Shown here in pieces: positions 4,524 to 41,600 of a DNA stretch of 41,600 nucleotides. Source of the stretch: an uncultured Pseudomonadota bacterium (lineage in GTDB: Bacteria; Myxococcota_A; Bradymonadia; Bradymonadales; Bradymonadaceae); contig CATLTV010000023.1 of NCBI GenBank assembly GCA_950059285.1, positions 1 to 41,600 on the forward strand. The letters are read 5' to 3'. The translations under genes and the position numbers were made by a program. Position 1 is the first letter of the stretch; each line of letters begins with the position of its first letter. The notes below the pieces were generated by a model, which saw only the letters and a list, made by a program, of their open reading frames with translations, was not told the DNA's origin and ran no database searches.

Positions 4524-4595
4524 CGTTGAAAAAAGACGAGAAAGGGGCGGCAAATCGCTAGCGATTTGCCGCCCCTTTCTCGTCTTTTTTCAACG
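4524..4595. terminator. 72-bp perfect palindrome, bidirectional terminator (palindrome 1)
   Basis: Two 36-base arms pair without any mismatch or loop; the centre CTAG is at 4558-4561. A GC-rich core (GGGGCGGC) is flanked by A-tracts on the left and T-tracts on the right, so transcripts of either strand would form a hairpin followed by U-rich sequence. It sits between the convergent genes ending at 4518 and 4636. The same element recurs at 8571-8642. Confidence 0.85.
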
Positions 4596-8570: not shown

Positions 8571-8642
8571 CATTGAAAAAAGACGAGAAAGGGGCGGCAA
8601 ATCGCTAGCGATTTGCCGCCCCTTTCTCGTCTTTTTTCAATG
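8571..8642. terminator. 72-bp perfect palindrome, second copy (palindrome 2)
   Basis: It is identical to the element at 4524-4595 over the inner 68 bases and is likewise mismatch-free. The only difference is the pair at the second outermost position, which is G-C there and A-T here. It separates the convergent ssb and WD40 genes, and the A- and T-tracts suit termination in both directions. Confidence 0.85.
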
Positions 8643-10860: not shown

Positions 10861-10921
10861 AGGGGAGAACACAAAAAAGGCGCGGCCATGACATGGCCGC
10901 GCCTTTTTTGTGTTCTCCCCT
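10861..10921. terminator. 61-bp perfect palindrome (palindrome 3)
   Basis: Two 30-base arms surround a single central base at 10891. The arm reads, from outside in, GGGGAGAACAC, six A, then GGCGCGGCC. With T-tracts on both strands it is well formed as a terminator of the diguanylate cyclase gene that ends at 10990. It also sits only 42 bp ahead of the WD40 start. Confidence 0.8.
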
Positions 10922-14818: not shown

Positions 14819-16981
14819 ATGACTACACTTCCCATCCCGAACAACACGCTCGACTCATTTCACGCGCTCCCATCTTACCCCGCATCTCGTCAGGACTACG
14901 ACCACTGGAGCATGTGGGTCAGCGAACAGTTCTCACTCAAACGCATGCCCATGCTCTCCCTTGAGGATGAACAGGGCGATCCTCTTGATGCGCGCAACAA
15001 GCTTCATGTGGCCTGGCGAGCGATCATTGGTTACTGGGCAGGAGGAAAAGGTGTTGCGCCAGATGATGCGCCGTTAATCATGTATCACCTGCTCAAAAAC
15101 GCACATCAAGCGCCTCCTTTTGTGCTGCTTGCCGCGCGTAAACTCACCAGAGCAAGTCTTGAAGCAGGCGCGACCTCTTCAGATGCCCTATTCTTGCTCG
15201 CCACATTCGCGTGGCCTCTGCGAGATATCGATCCAGAGCTCTCCATGATGGCATGGCAGTATATCATTCATGCGCCCTGGCAATCCGATCCTCTGACTCA
15301 ACGCGATCTCATCATCGCGGTGCACCAACATGAAGCCTGGCGAGATCACCGTGGATTGATGGACCTGGTCGATGCACGGCATCAAGCGGGGTTGCTGGCG
15401 AGCACACGCAGCTTGCTTGAAGCAATCGCACTGGTGCAAACGCGCAAGGAACAGATCGAGCAGATTCAGTCCTATCGCGACTTTATCGGTGTGGAGCTCG
15501 TGCATGGCGCACATCGTGCGATCGTAAGGCTCGCACACCTCTATATTCAGGTCGAAGAAGATCAAGTCTACGCACGAGAAATCCTCAAACGTGCTGCGGA
15601 GTTAACACAGTCAAAGTCGCTCGTCACACACATTGAGCGACGTGCCTGGGATCGCCCTCTTGATGAGATCTACAAGTGGACCGAACACCTGGCGCATCCC
15701 CGACATCTTGATCACGAAATTCGTTTTGCGCTCAAACATCAACAACCTCACCACGCTCGCCGCATCGCCGAAGCTGTCATTATCCGCAAATACAAAAAGC
15801 TCTGGTATGGCTCGGCGATGGACAACTTACACGGTGCACTTGAACGCTTTGAGCGTGAGATCGAGGGCATTCCATCCGCTGATCCTATCAGTCGTCGTGC
15901 CGCCGAACACCTCGCTACACTCTATGTGAGGACACACCACGTCACACAACATGCACGATCTTTTGTACACTCGGTCGCTACCTCCATCGCATTCACGGGC
16001 AAAGGCGCTGAACTACACGATATCAAGGATGAGCTTGAGTACTTCTTCAATCGCTCTGATCCCTATCATGTGTTGCGTCATGAAGCCTCGCTGATCAACT
16101 CTCGTCGCAATGCTCTCAGTGATGATGAAAAGGCCGCCAGTGATGAGGTCCAGCGCTGGTTCTCGGACCGCTTTCGACAGGATCAACACACCACGCTCGA
16201 CAGGCTCGCAAAAATTATTGCTGCGCCCGTTGTAGATGCCACAAAATATGTGTCAGGGCTGCCTTATCTTGAAGACATTTGCGCCTCGTGTTTTCGTACC
16301 ATCATTGAGCGCTCCGATCGACTGGTGGGCGATCTCGAACCCATCGCACGTCGCGCCGCCGAGATCCGTTCTCAGTATGGCCATGGACTCAAATTGATTG
16401 AGTACGCGCGCGAGGTCACGCGTAAGGAAGTGATCGCAGCGTCACTCATCGCGGGATCAACAAGCTTTATGCCTCCTGGGTTGAGCTTGCTGACACACTC
16501 CACAGACCTTGGTTCAAGCCTACTTCTGGCATTTCGTGCGATCGCACGTATCGGCGCGGTGTTTGGTAAGGATCTCACACAACAGAACGGATTGCAGTTT
16601 TTGGCCGACTCCTTTGCGATTGGATTATCGAGTCAGGATGGAGAGGGCTTGCTCACATATTTGTCACGCGATCAGGAGCGTCTCCAGACCGCCATCACCA
16701 TTGGTGGCGTCGCCTACGGCTCCGCTCGCCTTGTGGAGTACCTCTGGATCGCCCCCAACGCCATGGGGAAACGCCCCTCGGAACAACTTGTGCGACACCT
16801 TGCGCGCGTCTGCGGTTTTGAACTTCAACATCAGGCCATCGTCAAGATCGTCCCCATGCTGGGCGCGCTCCTCTCGGGTATGAGCACCTATGCCTTCATG
16901 AATATGATCACCGAGGCAGCGATCCATGTCGCCGCTCGCGATGCCTTGCTTGTGCGAGCCCAGTCTTACGAACAGAGCTAA
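14819..16981 (+). CDS. EcsC-family-like protein with long helical N-terminal region
   Basis: The product is 720 residues. The first ~450 residues are helix-rich, with TPR/ARM-like stretches (for example DPLTQRDLIIAVHQHEAW). The C-terminal ~230 residues resemble EcsC-family proteins: a conserved small-residue segment GSTSFMPPGLSLLTHSTDLG, then helices with AFRAIARIGAVFGKDL. EcsC was named from a Bacillus ABC-transporter locus; its biochemical role is not established. No signal peptide is present. The next gene starts 16 bp after the stop, so the two are probably co-transcribed. The EcsC assignment rests on pattern recall and is moderate. Confidence 0.7.
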   Translation: MTTLPIPNNTLDSFHALPSYPASRQDYDHWSMWVSEQFSLKRMPMLSLEDEQGDPLDARNKLHVAWRAIIGYWAGGKGVAPDDAPLIMYHLLKNAHQAPPFVLLAARKLTRASLEAGATSSDALFLLATFAWPLRDIDPELSMMAWQYIIHAPWQSDPLTQRDLIIAVHQHEAWRDHRGLMDLVDARHQAGLLASTRSLLEAIALVQTRKEQIEQIQSYRDFIGVELVHGAHRAIVRLAHLYIQVEEDQVYAREILKRAAELTQSKSLVTHIERRAWDRPLDEIYKWTEHLAHPRHLDHEIRFALKHQQPHHARRIAEAVIIRKYKKLWYGSAMDNLHGALERFEREIEGIPSADPISRRAAEHLATLYVRTHHVTQHARSFVHSVATSIAFTGKGAELHDIKDELEYFFNRSDPYHVLRHEASLINSRRNALSDDEKAASDEVQRWFSDRFRQDQHTTLDRLAKIIAAPVVDATKYVSGLPYLEDICASCFRTIIERSDRLVGDLEPIARRAAEIRSQYGHGLKLIEYAREVTRKEVIAASLIAGSTSFMPPGLSLLTHSTDLGSSLLLAFRAIARIGAVFGKDLTQQNGLQFLADSFAIGLSSQDGEGLLTYLSRDQERLQTAITIGGVAYGSARLVEYLWIAPNAMGKRPSEQLVRHLARVCGFELQHQAIVKIVPMLGALLSGMSTYAFMNMITEAAIHVAARDALLVRAQSYEQS

Positions 16982-16997
16982 CTCTCAAGGAACTCCC

Positions 16998-17987
16998 ATG
17001 ACGCTTCGACTTACAGCACGGTGGTCATTCCTTGACCATCCCCCCACGCATTGCCACAGTTGCGATACGCGACTCATTCCCTATGTGCCACACTGCATCT
17101 CTTGCCATGAGCCGATCAAGAGCAGCGGGCAAAACCTTGCGTTGACCTCAACGCAAGAGCCACAAAAGGACGAAAAGGCGTGCCGAATCGCACACCTGAG
17201 CGATATTCACATTGGACAACAGGTCCCGAGCAGAAAGCTCATGCCGATGGCCACGTTTCGCATCTGGCTTGAACGATTCCAACGCTATGAGGTCGATCTC
17301 ATCGTACTCTCAGGCGACATTGTGGAACGTCCTGGTGACACGTATGGCATGACTCGCGCCAAGGCTTTGCTTGAAGATTGTGGCATCCCCTGGCTCATTG
17401 TGCCTGGAAACCACGACCTCCGAAGACCTGGGTATCCTGATGATTTCAATGATGTATTTGGCACATACCCACGCATTGAAACACACCACCACATCGACTT
17501 TATCCTGTTTGACTCCATGGCAGGACTTCCCCTTGAAGAGCGTGATGTCGCAGAACGTATGTATGGTGACTATGTGTGCTACACCGAAGGTCGCGTCGGT
17601 AAGAAACAACTCGACGCCATGAGCGCACAGCTCAAGGAACGCGATCCAAACAAACCACGCGCCATCGTGCTCCACCACCATGTCATGCGACAACACGCTG
17701 ACCTGATGCCTCTCACCCCAAAACAGGCGGGCATCACAGAAGACTTCTTTGGCACCATGAAAGCACTGATGGACGCCGATGAGATCTTCGACTGGGCACA
17801 ACAACATGGCGTCCTGACCATTTATCACGGGCATAAACACCAGTTCCAACAACCTGGTCTGCGTGATGGCAACATCCTTGTCCTGAATGCAGGATCATCC
17901 ACACTACGTGAAGGGAGCCAACGCGCTCGCTTTGTCGATTACCTCCCTGGTGAACGTGTGGTGACAAATCTGGAGTTGTTGTTATGA
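16998..17987 (+). CDS. Calcineurin-like metallophosphoesterase with N-terminal zinc ribbon
   Basis: I start at ATG 16998 (329 residues), which is preceded by AAGGA; the open frame begins further upstream inside the previous gene. Residues 19-36 form a CxxC-x10-CxxC zinc ribbon. The metallophosphoesterase core shows all family blocks: DIH at 69-71, GD at 106-107, GNHD at 137-140, an HHH motif at about 226-228 and GHKH at 278-281. These bind two metal ions and hydrolyse phosphodiesters, so 3',5'-cyclic nucleotides or nucleic acid ends are possible substrates. No signal peptide, so it is cytoplasmic. It is probably in an operon with the EcsC-like gene. Its last 7 bases lie inside a 70-bp palindrome. 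Confidence 0.9.
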   Translation: MTLRLTARWSFLDHPPTHCHSCDTRLIPYVPHCISCHEPIKSSGQNLALTSTQEPQKDEKACRIAHLSDIHIGQQVPSRKLMPMATFRIWLERFQRYEVDLIVLSGDIVERPGDTYGMTRAKALLEDCGIPWLIVPGNHDLRRPGYPDDFNDVFGTYPRIETHHHIDFILFDSMAGLPLEERDVAERMYGDYVCYTEGRVGKKQLDAMSAQLKERDPNKPRAIVLHHHVMRQHADLMPLTPKQAGITEDFFGTMKALMDADEIFDWAQQHGVLTIYHGHKHQFQQPGLRDGNILVLNAGSSTLREGSQRARFVDYLPGERVVTNLELLL

Positions 17988-18050
17988 ATCGCGGCCAGAG
18001 GGCGGCCTGTTGCGAAAGCAACAGGCCGCCCTCTGGCCGCGATTCATAAC
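17981..18050. terminator. 70-bp palindrome overlapping a stop codon (palindrome 4)
   Basis: Two perfect 33-base arms (17981-18013 and 18018-18050) close on a GAAA loop, a stable GNRA tetraloop on the plus strand. The left arm includes the final Leu codons and the TGA stop of the metallophosphoesterase. There is no T-tract within or after the stem on the plus strand, so it is not a standard intrinsic terminator. It could act as a 3'-end stabiliser or a U-less terminator. Confidence 0.6.
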
Positions 18051-18051
18051 C

Positions 18052-18096
18052 TCAAGAAAAAGAAAAGAGCGTGATGGTTTTGGGGCCATCACGCTC
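18052..18096 (-). terminator. Intrinsic terminator of the structured RNA
   Basis: Minus-strand stem of 11 perfect base pairs (GAGCGTGATGG with CCATCACGCTC) and an 8-base loop, followed directly by a T-rich run at 18066 down to 18052. It shows that transcription across 18280-18052 runs leftward. It lies back to back with the palindrome at 17981-18050. Confidence 0.85.
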
Positions 18097-18280
18097 TCCC
18101 GAGAGAGCACCCCAGTGAGGGTGCCCGCTCTGACGGGTCACGGTATATTTTGGAAGGCGACGCTTCCGGTGTGATAAAATCACTACGCCATGAAAGGAAA
18201 TGTTGATCGGGGGGACCGTGACCCTTGATCAATCATATTGTAGTGACTGGTAGGCCCTGCAAGGCAGGGATGCTTTAAAT
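18052..18280 (-). ncRNA. Structured RNA with predicted pseudoknot and intrinsic terminator
   Basis: No ORF explains this stretch, yet on the minus strand it is packed with helices. In transcription order these are CCCTGC/GCAGGG (18264-18269 with 18255-18260), a 7-bp helix (18240-18246 with 18180-18186) enclosing TTGATC/GATCAA (18227-18232 with 18203-18208), GGAAG/CTTCC (18163-18167 with 18152-18156), and GCACCC/GGGTGC (18119-18124 with 18107-18112). The loop of the TTGATC hairpin (18215-18224) is perfectly complementary over 10 bases to 18135-18144, forming a pseudoknot. It ends in an 11-bp GC-rich stem (18086-18096/18067-18077) followed by TTTTCTTTTT. It matches none of 6S RNA, tmRNA, SRP RNA or RNase P that I can recall. 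The 5' end is approximate. Confidence 0.72.
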
Positions 18281-18426
18281 ATGCTCACTCGAAACGAAAG
18301 GTAAAATCTATATTGTGTCATTGCATTTGCTGCCATCGACACGTTCTCATCAGCTCTTGATATTAAAACAACCGAGCATCAAACCTTTATTTCACTCGCA
18401 TAAAAATTTTCTACCCACACTGCAAT

Positions 18427-19992
18427 TCACGACTCCAACTCAATCTCCACAAAGCGCTCAAGATCCACCTTGAACTTTTTGTACGATGCCTTCTTCCATA
18501 TTTCTTCAGGTAACCCCATCAGCTCTGCACGTTTTCTGTGATGTTTGACCTGTGAAGGAGAACACTCCAGGAAATACTTCCATCCTGCCCTTCGAAACGG
18601 CTTTGGCACAGATTTGTCTCCAAGAAACTCCAACCACTCACGTGCGTTCTCCTCAAAACCCTCCATATCATCCCAGTTCATTTTACGTGCAAGCCCTTGA
18701 TGATCGCTGCTCGACCAGACTTCGAACGTCTCCAGACGCTCCGCAAACTCCGATTTTGCCAAACACCTGAAATTATGAAGTCCCATCATTCTACCAAGAC
18801 GTAGCGCATTTAAACCTGGATAGGCGTCCAAGCCCTGCTCTAACAAGCTTGCCAAAACCACGCCAGGCAGATCATGAAACACAAGCTCCTCCACTTTTGG
18901 TGCCCGTATAAGGTTCTGGTCATCATCTGCGAGCGTTTCCATCATCGCTTGCGCTGATACGCCATAGCCAAAATCCACCATTGTCTTATCAAGGGCCGAG
19001 GGCACAACATCAGGACTTAGTTTGCGCTCTAATTTCCCCCTCCAACGCTCAGCAGCAGGAGAGTCCCACTCAAAGCAAGAGTCACCATAATAGTCCTCAC
19101 CATTTAATCTAAGATCCCATACCTCAACGTTCTGTAAATACTCTGACTCGGTAAGCTTCTTCGCTTCAGCATCGGAAGCAACCACCATCACTCGCTTGAG
19201 ATTCAGCGATGCTTTTCGCATCGCCAATGCTTCAATCACATGGCTCATGCTGCCCGAATGCACACTTGAGAACCTCAAGTCCTGAAGGTTTTCTGACACC
19301 TCGTGCGACAAGAACTCCACTATTTTTGTCGAATACTCTGCGCCACTAAACCATCCAAATGCTTTGAGGTTGGGCACCTCTGCACTCCGCGCCATCAACA
19401 CCTCAAGCACAGAGTCTAACACCTCCGAATCGCGCTGCCCCCACAGATGAAAATCAAGATATTCCAGTGTGTTGCCACGCTCATCAATCATTGTATTGAG
19501 CATCCTAACAATGCCTGGATGGGTAGCCTTCCCCTCTCCCTCTGGCAAACTATGATCATAGAGATAGACCCCCTTGAATGCTGGCATCTTCCTCATCAGC
19601 TCCAACACAATAAAACTGGCGTATGCACAGTTATGTAGGTCCAACACGGTCAATTCACCCCATGGAACCTTGGACCAGTCCCCCTTGAGCTTATCCTTGA
19701 ATGCTTTTTTGGTAGATAAGCTCTCCGCACCCAGAGTCTCCACACCAACACTCAGGCTGTGATCTCTATAGTAACGATGCTCACGATACACGATGGGCCA
19801 TTTCACAACCTCACGATTGAAGTAATCAAGGTAACGCTCTTTAAACTCACCAAGACGACGCTCTTGCTTGAGCTGGTCTGCGTGTGATTCAAAAGCAGAA
19901 TGAAAATTATCCCAACCTTGCCTGGACCAATCATCCTTCTGAACAATCTCGCGAAGTTCCTCGAACGCTTGCTGCACACTATCTTCTGACAT
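18427..19992 (-). CDS. Leucine-rich-repeat-like protein
   Basis: The product is 521 residues from ATG 19992, which has GAGG six bases upstream. It is cytoplasmic by the absence of a signal peptide. An N-terminal charged region (about 100 residues) leads into irregular leucine-rich segments, such as WGELTVLDLHNCAYASFIVLELM and LNALRLGRMMGLHNFRCL, so it is probably an LRR solenoid with poorly conserved repeats. The N-terminal pattern F-E-L-R-x-I-V...W loosely resembles the LRR protein at 750-2516, suggesting a shared family. Function unknown. The structured RNA lies 150 bp downstream on the same strand, with no terminator between, so the RNA could also be the tail of this transcript. Confidence 0.75.
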   Translation of the reverse strand: MSEDSVQQAFEELREIVQKDDWSRQGWDNFHSAFESHADQLKQERRLGEFKERYLDYFNREVVKWPIVYREHRYYRDHSLSVGVETLGAESLSTKKAFKDKLKGDWSKVPWGELTVLDLHNCAYASFIVLELMRKMPAFKGVYLYDHSLPEGEGKATHPGIVRMLNTMIDERGNTLEYLDFHLWGQRDSEVLDSVLEVLMARSAEVPNLKAFGWFSGAEYSTKIVEFLSHEVSENLQDLRFSSVHSGSMSHVIEALAMRKASLNLKRVMVVASDAEAKKLTESEYLQNVEVWDLRLNGEDYYGDSCFEWDSPAAERWRGKLERKLSPDVVPSALDKTMVDFGYGVSAQAMMETLADDDQNLIRAPKVEELVFHDLPGVVLASLLEQGLDAYPGLNALRLGRMMGLHNFRCLAKSEFAERLETFEVWSSSDHQGLARKMNWDDMEGFEENAREWLEFLGDKSVPKPFRRAGWKYFLECSPSQVKHHRKRAELMGLPEEIWKKASYKKFKVDLERFVEIELES

Positions 19993-20091
19993 GCGTAACC
20001 TCATATATTTTAATGAAAAAGACTCACATTATGTAACTCAATATGTATGACGAAACCAAACGCCAGAGCGTCGCACAAAAAGCGTCCTGAC

Positions 20092-20158
20092 ACATCAACG
20101 GGCAAGGATGGGGCGAGTTTTGCTGCGCAAAGCTCGCCCCATCCTTGCCCGTTGATGT
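20092..20158. terminator. 67-bp palindrome behind hutF (palindrome 5)
   Basis: Arms of 32 bases with a single mismatch (20118/20132) close on a 3-base loop. It lies 6 bp after the hutF stop and so is in terminator position on the minus strand, but it lacks a long T-tract. Its core, AAGGATGGGGCGAG, is closely similar to that of the palindrome at 23658-23705. Confidence 0.6.
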
Positions 20159-23657: not shown

Positions 23658-23705
23658 GTCAAGATGGGGCGAATTTTTGCACGCAAAAATTCGCCCCATC
23701 TTGAC
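23658..23705. repeat. 48-bp perfect palindrome in a divergent promoter region (palindrome 6)
   Basis: Two perfect 23-base arms around a 2-base loop (23681-23682). Unlike the others it lies between two divergent genes (23487 minus, 23765 plus), where no transcript is expected to end. The core AAGATGGGGCGAA is a near copy of the core at 20092-20158. It could be an operator, a 5'-UTR hairpin of the plus gene, or a stray member of a dispersed repeat family. Confidence 0.6.
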
Positions 23706-30268: not shown

Positions 30269-30329
30269 AAGCACAAAAGAGGGCGCGATTTTAAATCTTC
30301 GATTTAAAATCGCGCCCTCTTTTGTGCTT
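30269..30329. terminator. 61-bp palindrome behind acs (palindrome 7)
   Basis: Perfect 29-base arms close on a TTC loop (30298-30300). The core is GAGGGCGCGATTTTAAATC, flanked by AAAA on the left and TTTT on the right, so it forms a good hairpin in either direction. It begins 14 bp after the acs stop. Confidence 0.82.
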
Positions 30330-32255: not shown

Positions 32256-32265
32256 TAGTCAAAGA

Positions 32266-32315
32266 CGCATAAAAAGGGGCCTCGCTGCTTTGGCAGCGAG
32301 GCCCTTTTTTATGCG
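32266..32315. terminator. 50-bp palindrome behind the PLD gene (palindrome 8)
   Basis: Arms of 23 bases with one G-T pair (32276/32305) close on a TTTG loop. A GC-rich stem is followed by six T, a textbook intrinsic terminator on the plus strand. On the minus strand the opposite end also has five T. Confidence 0.9.
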
Positions 32316-32523
32316 CCTTTCATGACAAAAAGTAACACAATATTAAAAATCCTGCGTAGACTTTCAACATTATGTTACAAAAATCACGTCGACCTGAAAA
32401 ACAGCGCATAACAGGATTGACAAAAACTCATAGACGCACGCACTATCCGCCGCGTTGAGGCCGCCTCAAGTGAGGCTCATCATCCACACAGTCCCCCCTG
32501 TCCTGTCCATATTGGAGAGTACT

Positions 32524-34146: not shown

Positions 34147-34673
34147 AACGGGAGCTTATATCCTCTAAACCTAGCACCTGTAGTCTCTTAAACAACTCAA
34201 TTCACAAATTAAATTATTCAGAAACTACTCTAAAAACACACCACACATCTGTGCTCTCGTACCTGTGTGTCATGTGTTGTCGTACGGATGATGGCGCCAC
34301 CAAGATTCTGCAATCCTGACCACCATAAAGATCGCTTAACTAACAATGATGTAATTGAAAAATTCCAACAGTCAAGGATCTCCAAGAGCATGTCTCGGCA
34401 CGATCTCAACTTCCATTTACACCCAAGCCTACACAAAAACCTTTATCAGACAACCACTTAAGACCAATAAACCTCATTCTATCACGAAGTTCGATATTTT
34501 TAAATTTTTTTACCCATAGCGTGAAACATTCGGCAACACGGGTACTTCCACACTCCAATCCACGCTCTGGATTCAAGTTGAGCACACCATGTCACGATGT
34601 TACACTCGTGTGTGCAAAGATTTCACACCATTTGCTGTGAAAGACACGCAACCTACCCTATCAAGGAGCCCCC
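34147..34673. other. 527-bp intergenic region
   Basis: No gene with codon structure or a family match is visible. Short ORFs on both strands have no ribosome sites or recognisable products. A candidate promoter for the next gene lies at 34578-34606. The A/T-rich stretch at about 34480-34512 is unremarkable. Confidence 0.5.
34578..34606 (+). promoter_or_regulatory. Candidate promoter for the DUF1508-like gene
   Basis: TTGAGC at 34578-34583, a 17-bp spacer, and TACACT at 34601-34606. Each hexamer matches the sigma-70 consensus at four of six positions. It would give a leader of about 60 bases with an AAGGAG ribosome site just before the ATG. Confidence 0.35.
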
Positions 34674-35226: not shown

Positions 35227-35308
35227 GTAGACAGCCGACAGGAACGCGACAGGGCGGCCCATTGCTTCTGCAATGGGCCGCCCTGTCGCGTTCCTGTCGG
35301 CTGTCTAC
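35227..35308. terminator. 82-bp palindrome overlapping a stop codon (palindrome 9)
   Basis: Two perfect 39-base arms (35227-35265 and 35270-35308) close on a TTCT loop: the longest in the window. The right arm overlaps the TAG stop (35305-35307) of the EGF-type gene. The core contains ACAGGGCGGCCCATTGC but there is no T-tract on either side, so it cannot act as a usual intrinsic terminator. It separates convergent genes. Confidence 0.6.
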
Positions 35309-41526: not shown

Positions 41527-41600
41527 TAAGCCAAAAAAGGGTGCGTTCAGGGGCCATTTGACATGTCAAATGGCCCCTGAACGCACCCTTTTTTGGCTTA
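41527..41600. terminator. Palindrome of at least 74 bp behind pyc (palindrome 10)
   Basis: Perfect 37-base arms without a loop (centre between 41563 and 41564) run to the last base of the window, so it may be longer. The arm reads AAGCCAAAAAAGGGTGCG inward from the left edge, so T-tracts flank the stem on both strands. It begins 15 bp after the stop. Confidence 0.85.

Follow-up and report, generated by a model that had tools for sequence, protein, structure and literature searches.

A structured, terminator-ended stretch between convergent genes as a candidate small RNA or mRNA tail

A 229-nt intergenic stretch on the minus strand of the window (the whole 41,600-nucleotide stretch of DNA that was analysed) is most prudently regarded as a candidate for an ordinary small RNA or an mRNA tail. 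We tentatively favor a small RNA that is intergenic, about 200-240 nt long, orphan and lineage-specific; that the stretch is instead the tail of the neighboring LRR-like mRNA is nearly as likely. A sequence-only reading had described an undescribed structured RNA with a pseudoknot and had suggested a regulatory RNA or an element of the LRR-like gene's transcript, the same two possibilities that we weigh first. Its description of the stretch as structured, terminator-ended and non-coding holds, and no Rfam match was found, but a pseudoknotted new class is unsupported, and we find no evidence for a new RNA class at this locus.

The locus and the proposed transcript limits

The region separates a metallophosphoesterase gene (16926-17987, plus strand) from a convergent LRR-like gene (18427-20004, minus strand). 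The convergent gap measures 439 bp here, while other convergent gaps in the window measure, e.g., 118 bp and 21 bp. The following features are referred to throughout.

18427-20004, minus strand: LRR-like gene, 525 aa, on the same strand as the candidate RNA and upstream of it
18271-18426, minus strand: AT-rich upstream stretch, 36.5% G+C versus 54% in the RNA
18280-18052, minus strand: candidate RNA stretch, intergenic
18255-18269, minus strand: helix P1 (CCCTGC / GCAGGG), from the fold; the 5' end is likely near
18180-18246, minus strand: candidate outer helix P2 (TCACTAC 18246-18240 / GTAGTGA 18186-18180)
18203-18232, minus strand: candidate hairpin P3 (TTGATC 18232-18227 / GATCAA 18208-18203), read from the sequence
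18215-18224, minus strand: 5' strand of the 10-bp helix, GGGTCACGGT, within the P3 loop if P3 forms
18187-18202, minus strand: CU-rich stretch CATTTCCTTTCATGGC, largely unpaired in the fold; possibly an antisense seed
18152-18167, minus strand: helix P5 (GGAAG-CGTCGC-CTTCC), from the fold
18135-18144, minus strand: 3' strand of the 10-bp helix, ACCGTGACCC, exact complement of the 5' strand
18105-18126, minus strand: helix P6, a 9-bp hairpin with a 4-nt loop, -15.8 kcal/mol
18063-18100, minus strand: strong intrinsic terminator, a 15-pair stem with its loop in CCCCAAAA, then the T-run TTTTCTTTTTC
17981-18050, plus strand: palindrome, perfect over 33 bp, with a GAAA loop; the left arm covers the stop codon of 16926-17987

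The strong terminator noted earlier is present: past the 15-pair stem at 18100-18063 the minus strand continues into a T-run, so that this strand is the right one. It is the sole terminator-like site listed for 17950-18450. The palindrome at 17981-18050 is probably the terminator of the convergent gene and lies outside the candidate RNA. In agreement with the earlier statement that the stretch holds no open reading frame, we found no convincing one. The minus-strand frames measure only 42 to 47 codons; two of them (43 and 47 codons) lie inside the candidate RNA without an evident ribosome site, and the third (42 codons) starts in the terminator and exits through the palindrome. Sigma-70-like sites in the AT-rich upstream stretch are weak (8/12 at best), and a minus-strand promoter search at a stricter threshold found none upstream of the candidate RNA.

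The LRR-like protein gave no match in Pfam or PADLOC searches. Among 19 genomes of the class it was found in its own genome only, with no match in the 18 others; that genome carries two distant paralogues (23-24% identity) in tandem on another contig (G000:C176:2793-6102).

The strand folds better than shuffled sequence

The predicted free energy of the 229-nt strand is -87 kcal/mol, compared with -59.3 +/- 4.1 for shuffles (z -6.8), and it beats 200 of 200 dinucleotide shuffles. Without the terminator the z score is -3.3. The earlier claim of a structured stretch is thus borne out, as is the exact complementarity on which it centered: minus-strand positions 18224-18215 and 18144-18135 are perfectly complementary over 10 nt. 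If P3 formed, its 18-nt loop would contain this 5' 10-mer and CCCCCC (18214-18209); P3 alone is worth -3.4 kcal/mol and is absent from the minimum free energy (MFE) structure. P2 competes with a 5' hairpin (18249-18230) and with P4.

Search for relatives

DNA searches in 39 genomes, and with BLAST in 57 genomes of the class, returned only the window itself beyond chance. From the single sequence we built two covariance models, of which R1 includes P2/P3 and R2 treats the 10-bp helix as nested; with both, the window was the sole real match among 39 relatives and among the phylum's 379 genomes searched. Homologues of the convergent metallophosphoesterase occur in 11 other genomes of the family. 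At the orthologous loci examined, the next gene follows close behind, R2 gives no match, and the intergenic region is not conserved. R2 likewise gave no match above chance at the LRR paralogues. No match to the RNA was obtained in phage and plasmid DNA, none to its exact 18-mers in viral contigs, and none in a genome-contig search with the neighbor protein.

Several weaker matches were judged to be chance or unrelated. Of the BLAST matches of the RNA in relatives (best E 0.003, in genome G017), the three examined at full length, in G017, G008 and G051, span only about 20 bases each and have surroundings that look coding; an R2 match in G035 (E 0.03) covers 73 nt of the 168-nt model with unrelated sequence. 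Five viral contigs with both 10-mers hold repeat arrays or unrelated sequence, and the other helices are absent. The P3-plus-P2 pattern occurs in at least 116 stretches of genome contigs, and among the matches listed the upstream P2 strand is always absent. Most numerous among these stretches is a group that shares one Prochlorococcus sequence, and R1 applied to 80 of the pattern loci gave no match.

The sequence-only reading had named a lack of conservation or covariation in relatives as the result that would count against it. No relative was found, and the claim gains no support; the refutation is only a weak one, because the sets searched contain no other genome of the genus, which makes the lack of homologues weak evidence against function.

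Tentatively favored: an independent small RNA

The tentatively favored reading, an independent small RNA, is supported by a terminator of its own, by the fold scores with and without that terminator, by a gap far above the other convergent gaps of the window, by the step in G+C content at 18271 (a pattern that an AT-rich promoter region ahead of a structured RNA would produce), and by a combined architecture that is rare in shuffled sequence. It is weakened by the lack of any homologue or covariation in the collections searched, of a good minus-strand promoter, and of a near-perfect translation-start target for the CU-rich stretch.

What the analysis shows is the complementarity, the stable fold, the terminator, and the absence of convincing coding sequence and of detectable relatives; for such an RNA we infer that it is transcribed, where it would start, that it may form a pseudoknot, and how it would act. 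Minus-strand transcription would begin at roughly 18271-18300 and end at the terminator. P1, the 10-bp helix, P5, P6 and the terminator could then form a stable scaffold that keeps two C- and CU-rich stretches single-stranded, CCCCCC and CATTTCCTTTC (18202-18192). Most likely, these unpaired stretches would base-pair with G-rich translation-start regions of other mRNAs. A genome scan with the complement of the CU-rich stretch returned six sites with 2 mismatches, a chance-level result, most of them inside open frames; since none lies at an evident ribosome site, we name no target.

C-rich loops occur in the base-pairing sRNAs OxyS, LhrC and RNAIII, where they can meet G-rich ribosome sites (PMC8383071). 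The candidate resembles these RNAs in being intergenic and terminator-ended and in having C- or CU-rich unpaired stretches, which may serve as seeds; unlike them, it gave neither a target in the genome scan nor relatives in the collections searched.

A possible structured 3' untranslated region

Possibly, the stretch instead belongs to the LRR-like gene, as its long and structured 3' UTR. Because this gene has no nearer terminator of its own, its mRNA would extend for about 330 nt, as far as the terminator (18100-18063), and the helices would either guard the end of the mRNA or give rise to a small RNA by processing. The two features share a strand, and the terminator is the only such site found past the LRR stop codon; in several other genes of the window, a long palindrome lies no more than about 10 nt from the stop codon, and the LRR-like gene has none there. 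Against this reading, a 330-nt tail is long for such a compact window, and the change in G+C content at 18271 points to the start of a new unit more than to one uninterrupted tail.

Structured RNAs derived from 3' UTRs are a known kind. The candidate is like them in lying downstream of a same-strand open reading frame and ending at the only terminator, but differs in starting about 150 nt past the stop codon, behind the AT-rich stretch.

Possible chance folding of an intergenic stretch

Somewhat less probable is that only the terminator matters and that the other helices reflect chance folding of a non-conserved intergenic stretch. Perfect helices of at least 10 bp arose in 7 of 1,000 shuffles of the 178-nt stretch. 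Scanned across a shuffled 41.6 kb, perfect 10-mer pairs at a spacing of 30-120 are expected about 4 times, and the real window holds 2; the 10-bp helix alone is therefore not significant, as this reading would have it. The reading is also consistent with the lack of conservation anywhere searched, with the closely following gene in those relatives examined that have the orthologous neighbor gene, and with the abundance of terminator-like palindromes in the window.

Two results argue against chance folding: the z score of -3.3 without the terminator, and the rarity of the joint architecture in shuffles. We defined the joint pattern as a hairpin of at least 6 bp with a loop of at most 22 nt and a 10-nt complement at most 100 nt downstream. 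By these criteria, which were fixed after seeing the pattern, it occurred 16 times in 200 shuffled strands; with a 7-bp outer helix added, again fixed afterwards, it occurred once in 200 (0.005 per strand). Because the pattern was defined after being seen, the rarity of the combined architecture is suggestive only.

Pseudoknot or nested helix

That the RNA is a new genus-restricted pseudoknotted small RNA is improbable. Under this proposal, the 10-bp loop helix together with P2 and P3 would compete with a nested fold, and the RNA may switch between two states. In the MFE structure the 10-bp helix is nested, crosses no other helix, and encloses P4 and P5; the MFE 5' hairpin, pairing 18249-18244 with 18235-18230, excludes P3. 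A pseudoknot requires P3, the pairing of 18232-18227 with 18208-18203, and P2 would favor it further.

P2 and P3 alone contribute -8.6 kcal/mol. For the competing nested fold, made up of the 5' hairpin, the 10-bp helix, P4 and P5, the total is -31.9 kcal/mol. From the 10-bp duplex energy of -18.8 and the usual pseudoknot penalty, a value from general knowledge rather than a computed one, the pseudoknotted form may be roughly estimated at about -28 to -30 kcal/mol, within error of the nested form. The perfect 10-bp pseudoknot described earlier is therefore not established, as the MFE structure nests the helix and the two folds are near-equal in energy. The 10-bp helix itself is robust, whichever its topology.

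RydC is an sRNA with a pseudoknot (PMC8383071), the arrangement proposed for the candidate; in the candidate, unlike RydC, the pseudoknot is one of two near-equal folds, and there is no Rfam match.

Known RNA families

No family in Rfam matched the whole window at gathering score, and at E <= 10 the region gave only implausible matches or ones driven by the neighboring palindrome, in keeping with the earlier impression that the RNA fits none of the common families. ARAGORN found neither tRNA nor tmRNA in the window. The 6S RNA (RF00013) covariance model gave no match in the region at E <= 10 and none in this genome at E <= 0.001; with no recognized 6S RNA, that place in the genome is formally open, yet this does not make the candidate a 6S RNA. 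6S RNA is similar in length and likewise stand-alone, but it is a single long bulged hairpin, and the candidate folds differently. Riboswitches and cis leaders lie 5' of a same-strand gene. The next gene past 18063 is the convergent metallophosphoesterase gene on the plus strand, and the absence of a minus-strand gene downstream rules out both a leader and a riboswitch.

A strongly diverged member of a known family (6S, tmRNA, Abi or type III antitoxin RNA, riboswitch) is thus very improbable: size and terminator are compatible with several families and the 6S place is open, but the Rfam results, the fold, the lack of a same-strand gene downstream, and an LRR-like neighbor that matches no defence or toxin family all stand against it.

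Other features of the window

The window holds about ten very long palindromes, perfect or nearly so. Their arms measure 23-39 nt, their loops no more than a few nt, and most have a GGGGCG-like core.

35227-35308: long palindrome
41527-41600: long palindrome, perfect over 74 bp
4524-4595: long palindrome
8571-8642: long palindrome
17981-18050: long palindrome, also listed above
10861-10921: long palindrome
30269-30329: long palindrome
20092-20158: long palindrome
23658-23705: long palindrome
32261-32320: long palindrome

Most have a stop codon no more than about 10 nt away, and they resemble oversized terminators that would often work in both directions. A BLAST search with one palindrome found further related copies elsewhere in the genome. 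The palindrome at 41527-41600 coincides exactly with the end of the contig (41600 bases), which suggests that the assembly broke at such palindromes.

Two further regions are rich in repeats or structure. Near the contig end, at positions 164-593, an apparently non-coding unit of 122-123 bp is repeated 3.5 times in tandem; the unit includes an inverted repeat (GGGTCGGCGTTTATCGCCGAACC) and a T-tract. The 527-bp intergenic region at 34147-34673, which is flanked by divergent genes, contains the hairpin-rich stretch ACACACCACACATCTGTGCTCTCGTACCTGTGTGTCATGTGTTGT, and its minus strand folds with a z score of about -8 (170 nt from 34171).

Significance

Long perfect complementarity in one genome is insufficient to claim a new RNA class. 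If transcribed, the candidate would be a small RNA of a single genome in a poorly studied, probably predatory bacterial class, and the general picture would be unchanged.
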